From contig CANCGU010000086.1 in assembly GCA_947377705.1 (NCBI GenBank), forward strand, positions 1 through 9,748: a stretch of 9,748 nucleotides of DNA. Reading direction: 5' to 3'. Both the position numbers and the translations under genes were made by a program. Within the stretch, counting starts at the first letter, position 1, and each line of letters opens with the position of its first letter. This DNA is from Comamonadaceae bacterium (GTDB lineage: Bacteria; Pseudomonadota; Gammaproteobacteria; Burkholderiales; Burkholderiaceae). A model generated the notes under the pieces. The model worked only from the letters and a program-made list of their open reading frames with translations, was not told the DNA's origin and made no database searches. Shown here in pieces: positions 1 through 8,979 of the stretch.

Positions 1-725
1 TCAAGCGCGGCTTCGTCGTGCGGGTTGACCTCATTGGCCACCCGGTACACATGACCAGTGATGGACTTGTAGGGCGTGACGAGTTTTTCAAGCAAGGCAT
101 GGCCAAACAACACCAGGTGCACCTGCTGCCATTGCGCGCGCAAGTCCACCAACAACGTGAGCCAATCGCGTGCTTGCAAAGCGTCCCACACCGCATCGGG
201 CGCGTGCATGAGCACCACGTTTTCGTCAAACAAGGTGAGGGCATCGCGCACAGGGCCGCGCGTGGCGCGAATGCCTTGGGTTTCGATCTCAGCGGCTTGC
301 AGTTGATTGAGGCGGCGTTTGGCCAGCGGAAAGCGTTGCCAACACAAGCCGTTGAAGAAGTCGTGCAGGCCATCGCGTGTGGGGACTTGCGCGGTTTTGA
401 AGATGAAGTCTTCGTAGGCTTGGCCTTCGGAGAGGGCTGACTGGGGGACGAACGTCACTTCTTTGGCATCGCCAAGCGCGAGGCCAGCACGGGTCGTGTT
501 CACGCTCGCTGCGCTCGCAATATCACCCGAGCCCGCGCTGGCCTCTCGCATGGCTGCGTATGTGATTGCGTTAAGGGCTTCGGCCACGCTTTGCTGCTTT
601 AGCGCCAGTTGCGCCGAGGGTTCGCCGAGTTCGCGCCACGGCGCGAACCACGGTTGAGACCAATCGATTTCGGCTAAGACAGCACCTGCAAAGCCTTCTG
701 TGTTTGAACTTAAACCACGCGCCAA
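1..725 (-). CDS. DUF3025 domain protein, 3' end outside window
   Basis: The reverse strand is open without a stop from inside pyrC to the window edge, about 241 codons. The translation carries the DUF3025 hallmark stretch [20 protein letters not shown] followed by [14 protein letters not shown], and further on [12 protein letters not shown] and FGHALLEKL. The family has no established biochemical role. It is often found next to pyrC in Comamonadaceae (from memory), as here. No ATG or GTG lies in a sensible place. The best start I can see is a TTG at 725-723, inside the end of pyrC, with GAGG about 9 nt upstream. It would give [11 protein letters not shown] and a 16-nt overlap with pyrC, implying translational coupling. 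The segment encoded by 480-545 is an in-frame palindrome (separate entry) in what appears to be a linker between the N-terminal [11 protein letters not shown] part and the [16 protein letters not shown] block. The family call is firm; the start codon is uncertain. Confidence 0.85.
480..545. repeat. 66-bp imperfect palindrome inserted in frame in the DUF3025 gene
   Basis: The ends are inverted repeats: GAGGCCAGCACGGG at 480-493 and CCCGCGCTGGCCTC at 532-545, pairing at 13 of 14 positions. On the coding (minus) strand the one mismatch becomes a G-U pair, so the mRNA could form a continuous 14-bp outer stem. The 38-nt interior includes the direct repeat GCGAGCG-CA-GCGAGCG (coding strand) but no strong inner stem. 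The element is exactly 22 codons and encodes a small-residue, low-complexity stretch ([18 protein letters not shown] and onward). It looks like a REP-type or similar small palindromic element tolerated inside a coding region. I cannot name a family. Confidence 0.6.
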
Positions 726-1741
726 GGCAATGCCTCGCCAGAACGCAAAGGTTTCAAGTCGGCTTCGCCGAATGCGAAGCTCTCGGGTGGCATCCAGCTC
801 TCTTTACGCAGCGTGAGTGTGCCCGTGTTGCGAGGTAAACCGTAGAAGTCTGCGCCATGGAAGCTGGCAAAGCCTTCGAGCTTGTCGAGTGCCCCTGCGT
901 TGTCAAACGCTTCAGCGTACATAGGCATGGCGGCATGTGCGGTGTAGCAACCCGCGCAACCGGTGGCGTGCTCTTTGAGCTGTGCGGGGTGTGGGGCACT
1001 GTCGGTACCCAAGAAGAATTTGGGCGAGCCGCTGGTGGCCGCTTTGACCAAGGCTTGGCGATGTGTCTCGCGCTTCAACACAGGCAAGCAGTAGTAGTGC
1101 GGGCGAATGCCACCGGTGAAGATGGCGTTGCGGTTGAAGAGCAAGTGGTGCGCGGTGATGGTGGCGCCGGTGTACTTGTCGCTCGCAGCCACGTACTGCG
1201 CGGCTTCGGCAGTGGTGATGTGCTCGAACACAATTTTGAGTTCAGGAAAATCTTTACGCAGCGGAATGAGTTGTGTGTCGATGAACACAGCCTCGCGGTC
1301 AAACAAGTCAATGTCGGGGCTGGTGACTTCGCCATGCACCAACAACAACATGCCTGCCTTTTGCATGGCGTCGAGGGTTTTGTAGGTCTTGCGCAGGTCG
1401 GTCACGCCGGCATCGCTGTTGGTGGTGGCGCCGGCTGGATAGAGCTTGGCGGCGACCACACCTGCGTCTTTGGCACGGGGAATTTCGTCGGCGGGCAAGT
1501 TGTCGGTGAGGTAGAGCGTCATCAAAGGCTCGAAGCTCACACCTTTTGGAACGGCGGCCAAGATGCGTTGTTTGTACGCAAGCGCTTGCGCCGCCGTGGT
1601 GACGGGGGGCTTGAGGTTGGGCATGATGATGGCGCGGCCAAATTCGGCGGCGGTGTGGGGCACCACGGTGTTGAGTGCAGCGCCATCGCGCACGTGCAGG
1701 TGCCAGTCGTCGGGTTTTGTGATGGTGATTTGTTGCGTCAT
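710..1741 (-). CDS. pyrC: Dihydroorotase, class II (PyrC)
   Basis: Catalyses the reversible cyclisation of N-carbamoyl-aspartate to dihydroorotate, the third step of de novo pyrimidine synthesis, in the cytoplasm. The 343-residue length matches the class II enzyme of E. coli (about 348). The binuclear zinc site is complete: HLH at residues 14-16 in the [11 protein letters not shown] motif, the carboxylated lysine K99 in [11 protein letters not shown]136 in LLVHGEV, H174 in VFEHITT, and catalytic D247 in [10 protein letters not shown]18 and N42 (in MPNLKPP) fit the substrate-binding positions. The ATG start gives [14 protein letters not shown], placed as in the family; no strong Shine-Dalgarno precedes it (a purine-poor AGCGACAATCAGCAT). 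It is followed by, and probably overlaps, the DUF3025 gene. It is separated from the upstream glutamate transporter by a terminator and the hairpin-rich spacer, so it should have its own promoter there. Confidence 0.97.
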
Positions 1742-1774: not shown

Positions 1775-1852
1775 CTGTTGGTAGAGGGCATGGGCAGGTT
1801 CCTCATGCTGGGGTACCAGAAATCGTCACCTGCCCATGCCCTCTACCCACAG
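1775..1852 (+). repeat. 78-nt hairpin element 1 (conserved loop, private stem)
   Basis: The left arm at 1775-1799 and right arm at 1828-1852 pair over 25 bp with one mismatch (T1779 against C1848); the inner 20 bp next to the loop are perfect. The 28-nt apical part at 1800-1827 divides symmetrically into TCCTCATG, then CTGGGGTACCAG (a 4-bp CTGG/CCAG stem with loop GGTA), then AAATCGTC. It has no T-tract and is not a standard terminator. It lies 33 nt upstream of the pyrC ATG and would be in the pyrC 5' leader if transcription starts further upstream. The apical part recurs inverted in element 2; the stem does not. Confidence 0.85.
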
Positions 1853-1896
1853 ACTGCGACCTACAAAAGCTGGATTAGGGTTGTTGGTTAACGACC

Positions 1897-1974
1897 GTTG
1901 CGTGGCTTGGGTGCGGCGGCTGACGATTTCTGGTACTCCAGCATGAGGAAGCCGCCGTACCCAAGCTGCGCAAC
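1897..1974 (-). repeat. 78-nt hairpin element 2 (same loop, inverted, different stem)
   Basis: The left arm at 1897-1921 and right arm at 1950-1974 pair over 25 bp. The three deviations (arm positions 7, 8 and 17) are all G-U pairs if the plus strand is read as RNA. The 28-nt apical part at 1922-1949 is the reverse complement of the element 1 apical part with one difference, and keeps the 8-12-8 layout with CTGGTACTCCAG in the middle. Read in the same loop orientation, the stem arm matches that of element 1 at only about 9 of 25 positions, mostly near the loop. It is 44 nt from element 1, so the two form an inverted pair resembling a BIME in arrangement. Confidence 0.85.
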
Positions 1975-2072: not shown

Positions 2073-2097
2073 CTAATTAGGTTCTGACCCCAATTAG
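2073..2097. repeat. 25-bp imperfect palindrome with GGGGTCAG core
   Basis: On the minus strand CTAATTGGGGTC, a central A, and GAACCTAATTAG face each other with one G-U pair and one G-A mismatch. On the plus strand the octamer AATTAGGT is directly repeated at 2075-2082 and 2092-2099. It starts three bases past the gltL stop codon. From memory, similar AATTGGGGTCAG sequences recur near IS200-like and REP-associated transposases in proteobacteria. That link is recollection, not shown here, and no transposase is in the window. Confidence 0.5.
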
Positions 2098-2100
2098 GTA

Positions 2101-2838
2101 TCAGTGCGCCAAGATCTTGTTCAAGAACTCTTTGGTGCGTGGCTGACGGTTCTCAGGATGGTTGAAAAACTCATCCTTCGAGCAGTCTTCCAAAATCTTG
2201 CCGCCCACATCCATGAAGATGACGCGGCTGCCCACTTTGCGCGCAAAGCCCATTTCGTGGGTCACGCACATCATGGTCATGCCTTCATTGGCCAAGTCCA
2301 CCATCACGTCCAACACCTCGCCCACCATCTCGGGATCGAGTGCTGAGGTGGGTTCGTCAAACAACATCACGATCGGGTCCATGCTCAAGGCGCGGGCGAT
2401 GGCAACGCGTTGTTGTTGGCCGCCTGAGAGTTGACCCGGGAACTTGTCTTTGTGCGCCATCAGGCCCACGCGCTCTAAGTATTTCAAGCCATGGGCGTGC
2501 GCTTCGTCTTCGCTGCGGCCTAAGACCTTTTGCTGGGCAATGGTCAGGTTCTCGGTCACCGACAAATGCGGGAACAACTCAAAGTGCTGGAACACCATGC
2601 CCACGCGACTGCGCAGTTTGGGTAGGTTGGTGTCTTTGCCGTGCACAGCGATGCCGTCGACCATGATTTCGCCTTCTTGGAATGGCTCCAAGGCGTTGAT
2701 GGTTTTGATGAGGGTGGATTTGCCTGAGCCCGAGGGGCCACAGACCACGACCACTTCACCCTTTTGGATGTTGGTAGAACAGTTGTTCAACACCTGAACG
2801 GGGCCGTACCACTTGGACACATTTTTTAATTCAATCAC
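2101..2838 (-). CDS. gltL: Glutamate/aspartate ABC importer, ATP-binding subunit GltL
   Basis: Hydrolyses ATP on the cytoplasmic face to drive import through the GltJ-GltK channel. All ABC motifs are present in the 245-residue protein: Walker [10 protein letters not shown] (34-42), Q-loop Q84, signature LSGGQQQ (137-143), Walker B IVMLFDE (156-162) followed by PTSALD, and switch H194. The length and the ending [14 protein letters not shown] fit the polar amino acid (PAAT) subfamily, close to E. coli GltL (241 aa). The start is GTG at 2838, with GGAG six bases upstream; no in-frame ATG fits the [12 protein letters not shown] beginning. It is the last gene of gltIJKL, 25 nt after gltK. The specificity is taken from the operon and from GltI, since ATPases of glutamate, glutamine and histidine systems look alike. 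Confidence 0.95.
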
Positions 2839-5997: not shown

Positions 5998-6969
5998 TTA
6001 TTCTGCTTTGATGCCTGCATAGGCGGCCACGCGAGCCCAGCGCACCAACTCGGCGCGCATGAAATCTGTGCCATCTTCAGACGTGGTGAAAAAAGGCTCG
6101 AAGCCTAGCTTTTCAAACTTGGCTTTCATCTCAGGTGTTTTGCCGACCTGCACAAAAGCCGCGTTGAGCTTTTTCACAATTGCGGGCGGTGTGCCAGCAG
6201 GTGCATAGACCGCAAACCAATTGGCCAAGTCCACCCCCTTGTAACCGCCTTCTGCCAGCGAAGGCACTTGTGGCAAATTGGGGTTACGTTGGGAAGCCGC
6301 CATGGTCAGCGCACGAATGCGCCCTTGCTGAATGTAGGGCAAGGCATTTTGAACTGGGCTAAACATATAGGCGAGTTGCCCACCGACCAAATCGGTCATC
6401 GCTTGTGATTGACCTTTGTAGGGAATGTGATTGGTCTTGGTTCCTGCCAGTTGATTAAAAAATTCAGCATGCAAATGCTGCGGGCTACCCATGCCAGCAG
6501 AGCCATAGTTCAACTCACCCGGACTGGCTTTGGCCAAGTCCACAAATTCACGCAAATTGTTCGCTTTTACAGAGGGGTGGACCACCAACACCGAACCGGT
6601 TTGCCCCACCAAGGTGACGGTTTGTAAGTCTTTGAGCAAGTCATAAGGTAACTTGCGGTACACCGCCACGTTGGTGGCGATGGTTCCGGGTGAAACCAGC
6701 AGCGTGTAGCCATCGGGTTTGGCCTTGGCCACCATTTCTACGCCGATATTGCCGCCTGCGCCCAAGCGATTTTCAATCACCACCGGTTGACCTAACACCT
6801 CGCTGACTTTTTGCCCTAAGGTTCGCGCCAGTAAATCTGTGCCCCCGCCAGCGGCGACGGGCACGATGATTTGAATCGGCTTGTTAGGAAAGCTTTGCGC
6901 ATAGCTTGGACTGACGGCGCTGAGCAAACTCAACACCCCGACAAACAGCCATTGAAAAATATTCTTCAT
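5998..6969 (-). CDS. Bug-family (TctC-like) periplasmic solute receptor 1
   Basis: Periplasmic substrate-binding protein of the tripartite tricarboxylate transporter type. It has 323 residues, in the usual 310-335 range. A Sec signal peptide covers about 1-24 (cleavage after PSYA). The mature part begins QSFPNKPIQIIVPVAAGGGTDLLAR, with the family glycine-rich GGGTDLLAR at 41-49. Later come NRLGAGGNIG, KPDGYTLLV, LNYGSAGMGSPQHLHAE, IPYKGQSQAMTDLVGGQ and WFAVYAPAGTP, all Bug landmarks. Bug receptors bind carboxylates, including aromatic acids; the ligand here is unknown. No TctA or TctB membrane gene is in the window. It starts 21 nt after the decarboxylase gene with AAGGAA before ATG. Confidence 0.93.
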   Translation of the reverse strand: MKNIFQWLFVGVLSLLSAVSPSYAQSFPNKPIQIIVPVAAGGGTDLLARTLGQKVSEVLGQPVVIENRLGAGGNIGVEMVAKAKPDGYTLLVSPGTIATNVAVYRKLPYDLLKDLQTVTLVGQTGSVLVVHPSVKANNLREFVDLAKASPGELNYGSAGMGSPQHLHAEFFNQLAGTKTNHIPYKGQSQAMTDLVGGQLAYMFSPVQNALPYIQQGRIRALTMAASQRNPNLPQVPSLAEGGYKGVDLANWFAVYAPAGTPPAIVKKLNAAFVQVGKTPEMKAKFEKLGFEPFFTTSEDGTDFMRAELVRWARVAAYAGIKAE

Positions 6970-7986: not shown

Positions 7987-8979
7987 TTACTCCTGTTGTT
8001 TGATGCCAGCGCTATGGACAGCTTTGCCCAAGCGTTCGTTTTCATCCACGATGGCACGGCCATACTCACTCGCACTACCGCCAATGGCTTCGATGCCGGC
8101 GTTACTTAAAATTTGGATGGTCTCTGGCTGTTTTGCCACAGCCGTCATTTCAGCACTGATACGGTCTATCGCGGCTTGGGGGGTTCCGGTCGAGGCCAAC
8201 ACGCCAACGATAGGGGCAAAGTCAAAACCGGGAATCACCTCGGCCAGCGTCGGTACGTTTGGCTCTTGGCTGGAGCGCTTGCCTGCGTTATTGCCAATCA
8301 AATGCACCTGACCTGCTTTGACGAAACCAGACAGTGACGGCAGCGCAGAGAACAACATATCCACTTGACCGCCAATTAACGCGGGCACCGATTGGCCTGT
8401 GCCTTTGAATGGGATGTGCGTGATATCCAAAGACAAAGACGCTTTGAACGCCTCCATGCTCAAGTGATGTGTACTGCCAATGCCCGAAGACCCATAGGTC
8501 AATATGCCGGGTTTGCTCTTGGCCAAGGCGATTAATTCACGCAGGTTATTGGCGGGAATTTTGGGATGCACCGCCAGATACAAAGGTGCGCGTGCAGCCA
8601 GTGAGACGGGGACAAAGTCACGCTTGTAGTCATAGCTGATCGTTTTGTAGAGCGCAGGGTTGATGGAAAACATGGAGCCATCGGTGACCAAAAAGGTATA
8701 GCCATCTTTCGGCGATGACGCCATCGCTTGTGCAGCAACAACACCATTGGCCCCGGGTTTGTTATCCACGACCACCGGTTGCCCCAAACGTTCACCTAAA
8801 CGTTGCGCATAAATACGAGCCACGGTATCAGGCAAACCGCCAGCCGAATACGGGACGATGAATTTGATGGAGCGGTTGGGATAACCCTGAGCTAAAGCGC
8901 TCGATACAACGCCAGTTGCCGCGACGGCGAATGCCACAGATTGAAGCAAACGGCGACGTTGAATAAGGATAGATTTCAT
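7987..8979 (-). CDS. Bug-family (TctC-like) periplasmic solute receptor 2
   Basis: A second tripartite tricarboxylate transporter receptor, 330 residues. The leader is arginine-rich (QRRRLLQS, 7-14) then hydrophobic to SSALA at 30. RRRLLQ resembles a Tat signal, unlike receptor 1, whose leader is a plain Sec type. The mature part begins QGYPNRSIKFIVPYSAGG. The glycine motif is GGLPDTVAR (47-55) instead of the common GGxTDxxAR. Other landmarks are DNKPGANGVVAAQAM, DGYTFLV, YGSSGIGSTHHLSMEAF, HIPFKGTGQSVPALIGGQVDML and VGVLASTGTP. It diverges strongly from receptor 1, so the pair is not a recent duplication. The ATG follows the oxygenase stop by 25 nt with AGGAG at good spacing, and its stop overlaps the decarboxylase translation start region. 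Confidence 0.93.
   Translation of the reverse strand: MKSILIQRRRLLQSVAFAVAATGVVSSALAQGYPNRSIKFIVPYSAGGLPDTVARIYAQRLGERLGQPVVVDNKPGANGVVAAQAMASSPKDGYTFLVTDGSMFSINPALYKTISYDYKRDFVPVSLAARAPLYLAVHPKIPANNLRELIALAKSKPGILTYGSSGIGSTHHLSMEAFKASLSLDITHIPFKGTGQSVPALIGGQVDMLFSALPSLSGFVKAGQVHLIGNNAGKRSSQEPNVPTLAEVIPGFDFAPIVGVLASTGTPQAAIDRISAEMTAVAKQPETIQILSNAGIEAIGGSASEYGRAIVDENERLGKAVHSAGIKQQE
7990..7994 (-). promoter_or_regulatory. Ribosome site that fixes a GTG start for the decarboxylase
   Basis: AGGAG overlaps the final CAG GAG codons of the upstream receptor gene. It stands six bases from GTG 7983 but only two bases from the ATG at 7987-7985. The GTG is therefore the better-spaced start and the only one in the long frame. 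Confidence 0.7.

Follow-up and report, generated by a model that had tools for sequence, protein, structure and literature searches.

Scattered hairpins in the freshwater Limnohabitans/Rhodoferax group: a proposed REP-like element recognised in folded, single-stranded form

Why would two neighbouring hairpins keep the same dimensions and nearly the same apical sequence, while their stems have little sequence in common? The question is raised by a 9,748-nt stretch of DNA from a Comamonadaceae bacterium (hereafter, the window). A sequence-only reading of it had described two 78-nt hairpins of identical 25-28-25 geometry, and the coordinates of arms and apices confirm this. Hairpin A (1775–1852, constrained strand minus) has 25-nt arms at 1775–1799 and 1828–1852, hairpin B (1897–1974, constrained strand plus) has arms at 1897–1921 and 1950–1974, and the two score 89.5 and 87.2 bits, respectively, against the covariance model introduced below. 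As that reading stated, inversion of one apical part makes the two (1800–1827 and 1922–1949) match at 27 of 28 positions, the 5' arms are alike at only 9 of 25, and both stems are self-complementary: on the constrained strands, the arms of A form 24 of 25 Watson–Crick pairs and those of B form 22 Watson–Crick and three G-U pairs (25 of 25). The apical part of A (minus strand) is GA-CGATTT / CTGG-TACC-CCAG / CATGAG-GA, in which the internal loop is conserved and the apical stem and loop are replaceable; that of B (plus strand) is GA-CGATTT / CTGG-TACT-CCAG / CATGAG-GA. None of 200 dinucleotide shuffles reproduces the double occurrence of this core in the window, and the 211-nt hairpin region folds with z-scores of −10.5 and −9.0 on the two strands.

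The spacer of this two-hairpin unit (1853–1896) is assigned to no strand, and the constrained strands face outward from it. Next to hairpin A lies the start of pyrC, encoding dihydroorotase (710–1741, minus strand; TIGR00856, 460.6 bits), and facing hairpin B is the stop of a gene for a polar amino-acid ABC transporter ATPase (2101–2838, minus strand), whose best NCBIfam match, below the cut-off, is GlnQ and which is GltL-like, judged from its neighbouring genes. An inserted unit would extend from a T-rich stretch before A to an A-rich stretch after B, at roughly 1757–2008 with ends that are not base-exact, and similar units are present in three other genomes (G054, G042, and G061). The reading that we favour, with a probability of about 0.5, is that A and B are halves of one REPIN-like head-to-head element that is recognised when one DNA strand, namely the one bearing CGATTT...CATGAG, folds on itself.

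The sequence-only reading was staked in part on the pair not being unique among genomes, and it is not. The nearest genome searched (G001) holds 11 copies with at most three mismatches, against none for the reversed control pattern. By the same kind of pattern search, 19 of 149 relatives are carriers, all 19 of them within the 84 genomes of the same genus; this search is incomplete, because a further genome (G065) yields three matches by covariance model. That model (R1) was built from 60 hairpins (alignment A1), consisting of 58 of 66 representatives, chosen for pairing and for arms less than 75 per cent alike, plus the two hairpins of the window; from a set of loose matches, 191 of 939 were retained (at least 18 pairs). 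With the model, hits at E ≤ 1e-4 come from 74 of 399 genomes of the same bacterial family, representing 41 of 141 genera, in a search that scored no more than 11 candidates in each genome; 3 of 300 genomes drawn at the order level match, all three from that family; both searches used stricter filters, by which weak matches are lost. A genome that we take to be a Polaromonas metagenome-assembled genome (MAG; G207), searched alone, has 62 model matches, three of them partial.

A pattern scan of named genome contigs returned at least 120 matching stretches. The titles among the matches listed are those of Comamonadaceae (Limnohabitans, Rhodoferax, Polaromonas, Hydrogenophaga, Macromonas, and unnamed members), Aquincola, and unplaced Burkholderiales or beta-proteobacteria, along with three further titles: Chitinophaga pinensis, "Gammaproteobacteria bacterium", and "bacterium". 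A phage origin was rejected, as the core pattern occurs in no viral contig searched; a looser pattern matched at least 120 stretches of viral contigs, and among those listed none has 18 of 25 arm pairs, the best having 17. A plasmid search gave one weak 40-base match to the window unit. So far as searched, the hairpin family occurs in one bacterial family, the Comamonadaceae and their near kin.

What is held constant in these copies? Among the 218 distinct cores that carry no more than one mismatch, which were not chosen for pairing, 203 have arms with at least 18 of 24 positions paired, ten have 12–17, and five have fewer. The 28-nt part is therefore not widely found without arms, an outcome that would have spoken against the sequence-only reading; 15 of the 218 cores lack good arms. 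In the 60 hairpins of A1, 96.8 per cent of stem cells are paired, compared to 58.7 per cent after shuffling and 35–48 per cent in a sliding-partner control, and changes on both sides are seen in 28 of 30 pairs. Because 58 of the 60 A1 rows were chosen for pairing, 203 of 218 is the fairer figure. Watson–Crick pairing drops from 91 per cent at position 26 to 55 per cent at position 27, and the stem is 24–25 bp long. In a few copies (L118 2607, L105 977, and L022 3675), pairing continues past 25 bp, in L118 over 35 of 35 positions.

The sequence-only reading had also held that pairing and a shared loop are kept while the stem is free. The pairing, the apical motif, and the free stem stand, but conservation lies in an internal loop rather than in the loop as such. 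Likewise, the 8-12-8 split around CTGG-NNNN-CCAG describes A and B and does not extend to the family, in which the internal loop CGATTT/CATGAG, frequently accompanied by GA/GA, is what stays constant (most of the sample had been retrieved with that core). The apical stem and loop vary: CTGG-TACY-CCAG is common, the stem may be replaced by TCGG/CCGT, GTGG/CCAC, GCGG/CCGC, AGG/CCT, or GTGCG/CGCAC, and variant loops include CTCG, ACCGC, TACCCC, and GCGTTTG. Five copies have TGATTT with CATGAA, which fits replacement of a C-G pair by T-A. The outer GA/GA, which may form tandem G.A pairs, alternates with Watson–Crick pairs.

Selection on a structure had been proposed from the two hairpins of the window, and across the family a pairing constraint is indeed found; it is seen, however, on one strand only. 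On the CGATTT strand, mismatched transition cells comprise 344 G.T and 36 A.C (221 of 243 hairpins, selected by a cut that counts Watson–Crick pairs only; of the 22 rows excluded, 21 have fewer than 14 such pairs and one is too short). On the TCCTCATG strand, under the same cut, the non-Watson–Crick transition cells are mostly A.C, which correspond to G.T/G.U on the opposite strand. Rows with five to eight core mismatches had entered the data set through a cut that counts G.U. Among 74 non-redundant stems, the ratio of G.T to A.C is 104:18, and in the "Y" hairpins of G207, whose copies are not independent, A.C is not rare (46 G.T to 21 A.C). The structural constraint acts only on the strand bearing CGATTT...CATGAG. 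A bias of 344:36 disfavours as its source both a cruciform, in which both strands fold, and copying of one arm from the other. The latter, which the sequence-only reading had offered as a possible origin of the hairpins, need not be invoked as the main cause, since no excess of G.T over A.C would be expected from it.

The same excess is what RNA would show, with G.U as a wobble pair, if the hairpin acted in transcripts through 3' end protection, processing, or as a protein-binding site. We consider such an RNA-level element possible but on the unlikely side. Only 9 of 172 intergenic hairpins lie between divergent starts (AS contexts), and some copies lie between co-directional genes, such as parE and parC, both of which an RNA-level role would accommodate. 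However, copies antisense to both neighbours are as biased (G.T:A.C of 115:4) as copies sense to both (87:9), lone hairpins antisense to both neighbouring genes retain the bias (27:1, or 19:1 when non-redundant), and lone copies away from contig ends show no sense preference (SA 26, AA 16, SS 14, AS 5, and in-gene 3); these contexts come from a simple open reading frame and hexamer caller, and single ones may be wrong. The flanks of non-redundant hairpins have no strongly conserved column, and no T-tract of an intrinsic terminator follows the hairpin on its 3' side (across positions 27–50 after the core, no position has T in more than 15 of 61 hairpins). Rfam searches likewise yielded no match at the gathering score: in one, the eight matches at E ≤ 1 are all to microRNA models far below their cut-offs, and in the other, covering eight loci, there is no match. 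Given the lack of both a sense preference and a T-tract, an mRNA 3' UTR or terminator was rejected as the sole role. Since the constraint is independent of which neighbouring gene is sense, the folded strand is probably DNA, RNA from an antisense or unannotated transcript being the less likely source.

Orientation relative to replication shows no clear bias in the two genomes compared. Signs of GC skew change near 1.17 Mb in one (G059) and at 1.3–1.43 Mb in the other (G051), and by eye 4 of 6 and 5 of 6 lone hairpins, respectively, lie in one replication sense, counts that are neither independent nor significant.

Comparison of copies at orthologous positions shows that stems change in place with compensation. 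Two related species (G059 and G049) share 12 orthologous hairpins. Their flanks differ at 395 of 4575 sites (the flanks of paired hairpins overlap in this count) and their internal loops at 4 of 192 sites, and among 300 stem pairs there are nine compensated doubles, 11 single G.T changes (in either direction), no A.C, and four other changes. The stem of A at the pyrC locus varies among genomes (GGGCATG, GGCAGTG, or GGCCGTG), each version having its matching partner, and adjacent compensated pairs occur there; in two genomes (G010 and G048), the hairpins are partly broken. Copies recur at similar gene junctions. One of these is aldehyde dehydrogenase/DUF779, in records named Rhodoferax, Hydrogenophaga, and Macromonas; others are parE/parC, boxA/boxB, and the junction at a superoxide dismutase gene. 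Of these names, the topoisomerase subunits and DUF779 are supported by Pfam and the others were read from sequence. In three genomes (G066, G058, and G029), pyrC and the ABC gene nearly abut and the hairpin unit is absent; such empty sites could reflect either insertion or loss. No gene enclosed by a hairpin pair was seen; the hairpin clusters shared by at least three loci consist of neighbours at comparable gene junctions.

Most neighbouring copies are arranged as A and B are. The CGATTT strands point outward in 66 of 73 distinct neighbouring pairs no more than 400 bp apart, and, with hairpins close to contig ends set aside, 124 of 188 have a partner within the examined stretch and the other 64 are single. 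G207 holds 26 units whose cores are spaced 153–155 bp apart. Mean differences among these units are 0.058 and 0.019 for the internal loops, 0.366 and 0.254 for the arms, and 0.334 for the centre, values that are inflated by flips and mislabelled sides (left and right labels are doubtful in at least 4 of the 26). The centre of the G207 units (L476–L514) is a further palindrome, GGTAGCGCGCTACCGGTA, which occurs in both orientations.

A subset of hairpins is enclosed in larger composites. Twelve hairpins (L015, L060, and G466) lie inside GGGGTCAGANCAACATTAATT-type terminal repeats that resemble those beside the Y1 transposase gene of G466, the only genome used for this comparison and one that we take to be a Limnohabitans MAG. 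Within the composites, stems vary with compensation and the terminal repeats are nearly constant. Terminal-repeat composites of about 150 bp surround the hairpin in L296, L297, L299, L300, L015, and L060. Relative to a small asymmetry of the repeats, the core points one way in six and the other way in six of the 12, so inverted-repeat recombination also acts; it seems to flip parts of composites but should not create a strand bias.

These flips, together with the G207 centre in both orientations, bear on the proposal that the arms are complementary only because of template switching or inverted-repeat recombination at replication, with no selection on structure. Switching can produce multi-base compensations (in the part of PMC8794818 drawn on here), and adjacent compensated pairs such as those at the pyrC locus would be expected from it. 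Copying, though, gives Watson–Crick pairs alike on both strands and not a G.T:A.C ratio of 344:36, and the internal loops diverge little (4 of 192 sites) where the flanks do not remain so constant (395 of 4575). We regard this explanation as very unlikely.

If a folded DNA strand is what is recognised, the best-known kind of enzyme for reading it is a Y1 transposase, because TnpAREP enzymes, in the portion of the source cited, bind only one REP strand and contact loop or stem irregularities (PMC8266576). A REP-type Y1 transposase is accordingly the leading candidate for the reader, and a candidate only. Could the hairpins then be true REPs or REPINs of a resident REP-associated Y1 transposase (of TIRYT type)? 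Short palindromes, head-to-head dimers, a location at gene ends, several to many copies per genome, and, as proposed here for the hairpins, a single folded DNA strand recognised by irregularities in its stem are common to this family and to REP/REPIN and TnpAREP systems as the cited sections describe them (PMC3733652, PMC8266576, PMC6006769). The inverted doublet at short spacing that characterises REPINs is seen in the 66 of 73 pairs and the 26 G207 units. The Y1 protein of G059 (237 aa) scores 79.8 bits against the NCBIfam REP-associated tyrosine transposase, whose cut-off is 80. At genus level, 65 of 84 genomes contain Y1_Tnp matches, and at family level 292 of 399, in most cases one per genome; 63 of the 74 hairpin carriers have such a match, a somewhat higher share than the 229 of 325 among non-carriers.

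Other features tell against membership. Eleven of the 74 carriers have no Y1_Tnp match (lists compared by eye), for which reason a Y1 transposase was rejected as an obligate partner; the sequence-only reading had suggested looking for a gene always present in carriers, and Y1_Tnp, the single gene family examined, is not such a gene. REP elements of the REPtron kind adjoin their transposase gene, whereas hairpins were found by pattern at none of 18 Y1 loci (11 of them from pattern carriers) and by model at 3 of 31, the nearest about 3.9–4.9 kb from the Y1 gene (seven loci are common to the two sets, and other Y1 proteins are encoded at four of the 31). The three genomes concerned are G059, G001, and G042 (L293 8305, L292 7338, and L294 468). 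The 350-base flanks of five Y1 genes contain no hairpin and hold GGGGTCAG/CTGACCCC-type repeats instead. A GT[AG]G foot is present in 3 of 61 non-redundant hairpins and in 3 of 61 controls taken 20 nt further out. REPs of the CGTC class have, in the part of the source cited, a short 8–9 bp stem with a CGTC/TGTC end (PMC3733652); such an end is found in 7 of 61 hairpins compared to 2 of 61 controls, and the stem here is 24–25 bp. In foot motif and in Y1 gene neighbourhood, the hairpins do not behave as REPs. The family further differs from REPs in a stem sequence that is largely free and covaries and in a conserved two-sided internal loop near the apex.

The likeness to TIRYT elements, which carry terminal repeats with a GGGGWSAS motif according to the section cited (PMC3733652), lies in the 12 composites whose repeats are like those of the G466 Y1 gene and in a lone repeat of the window. 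Most hairpins, in contrast, have no terminal repeats: one occurs within 250 bp of only 23 of 264 hairpins, compared to about eight expected from overall repeat density, and the repeat of the window (2073–2097) encloses no hairpin. Taken together, we judge ownership by a resident Y1 transposase to be rather unlikely. Integron attC sites, too, have a folded strand recognised by its structure and unpaired bases (as described in part of PMC8266576), a resemblance of principle only.

Might the hairpins have been described before? Judged by titles and the openings of abstracts, the literature searched describes no hairpin with a conserved internal loop and a free stem, and the parts of the REP literature drawn on here describe no family whose stem sequence is irrelevant. 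The nearest named repeat is BRE, a Beta-proteobacterial repeat element known from Bordetella, Polaromonas, Delftia, and Rhodoferax. In the portions of the source cited, its full-length copies in Bordetella measure 75–91 bp and are GC-rich; BRE lies mostly between genes, and Polaromonas JS666 holds 29 copies and Rhodoferax ferrireducens four (PMC3110155). Compared by description only, BRE and the hairpins are alike in size, GC content, intergenic position, and presence in Comamonadaceae, and the 62 model matches of G207, taken as a Polaromonas MAG, add to the case that part of the family is already known as BRE. Conversely, and again by description only, BRE was found through more than 70 per cent sequence identity and occurs in tandem, variable-number arrays, and the cited portions describe neither hairpin nor internal loop (PMC3110155). 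We find the identity with BRE doubtful; unless the two are the same, the hairpins are a new variant of REP-like element.

Under our preferred reading, a REPIN-like element read as a folded single DNA strand, each hairpin consists of a 24–25 bp free stem, a conserved internal loop closed by GA/GA or Watson–Crick pairs, and a small replaceable apical hairpin. A protein would contact the internal loop and require of the stem nothing beyond a duplex of fixed length. Copies would have spread via single-strand transposition, although no transposition event was seen, and would now be kept for a host function at gene ends. More tentatively, and in our view improbably, the hairpins may represent a new class of strand-coded structural DNA element. 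In it, a protein of the host or of a mobile element would recognise both sides of the internal loop once a single DNA strand has folded, and would gauge a duplex of 24–25 bp whatever its sequence, so that the stem could be rewritten at the same gene junctions. If this is true, an element can rewrite its whole stem and still function at the same place, for example beside aldehyde dehydrogenase/DUF779 genes in records named Rhodoferax, Hydrogenophaga, and Macromonas. When wobble pairs favour one strand irrespective of transcription, the bias offers a simple statistical indication that chromosomes may be under selection for single-stranded DNA to fold. The dozens of free-stem copies in some genomes, with their interspecies orthologues, amount to a natural mutagenesis of what a hairpin-reading protein needs.

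Other elements of the window lie close to the unit or further along. An AGGCG...CGCCT hairpin-like sequence preceded by an A-run (2024–2046) is possibly the terminator of the minus-strand ABC operon, in which case the hairpin unit lies downstream of the terminator. The lone terminal-repeat-like copy at 2073–2097, CTAATTAGGTTCTGACCCCAATTAG, is of the kind that adjoins Y1 transposase genes in related genomes. Two proteins encoded at 5998–6969 and 7987–8979, which have no NCBIfam match, resemble tripartite tricarboxylate-type receptors, and near their genes are a class II aldolase-like gene and a LigXa_C gene.
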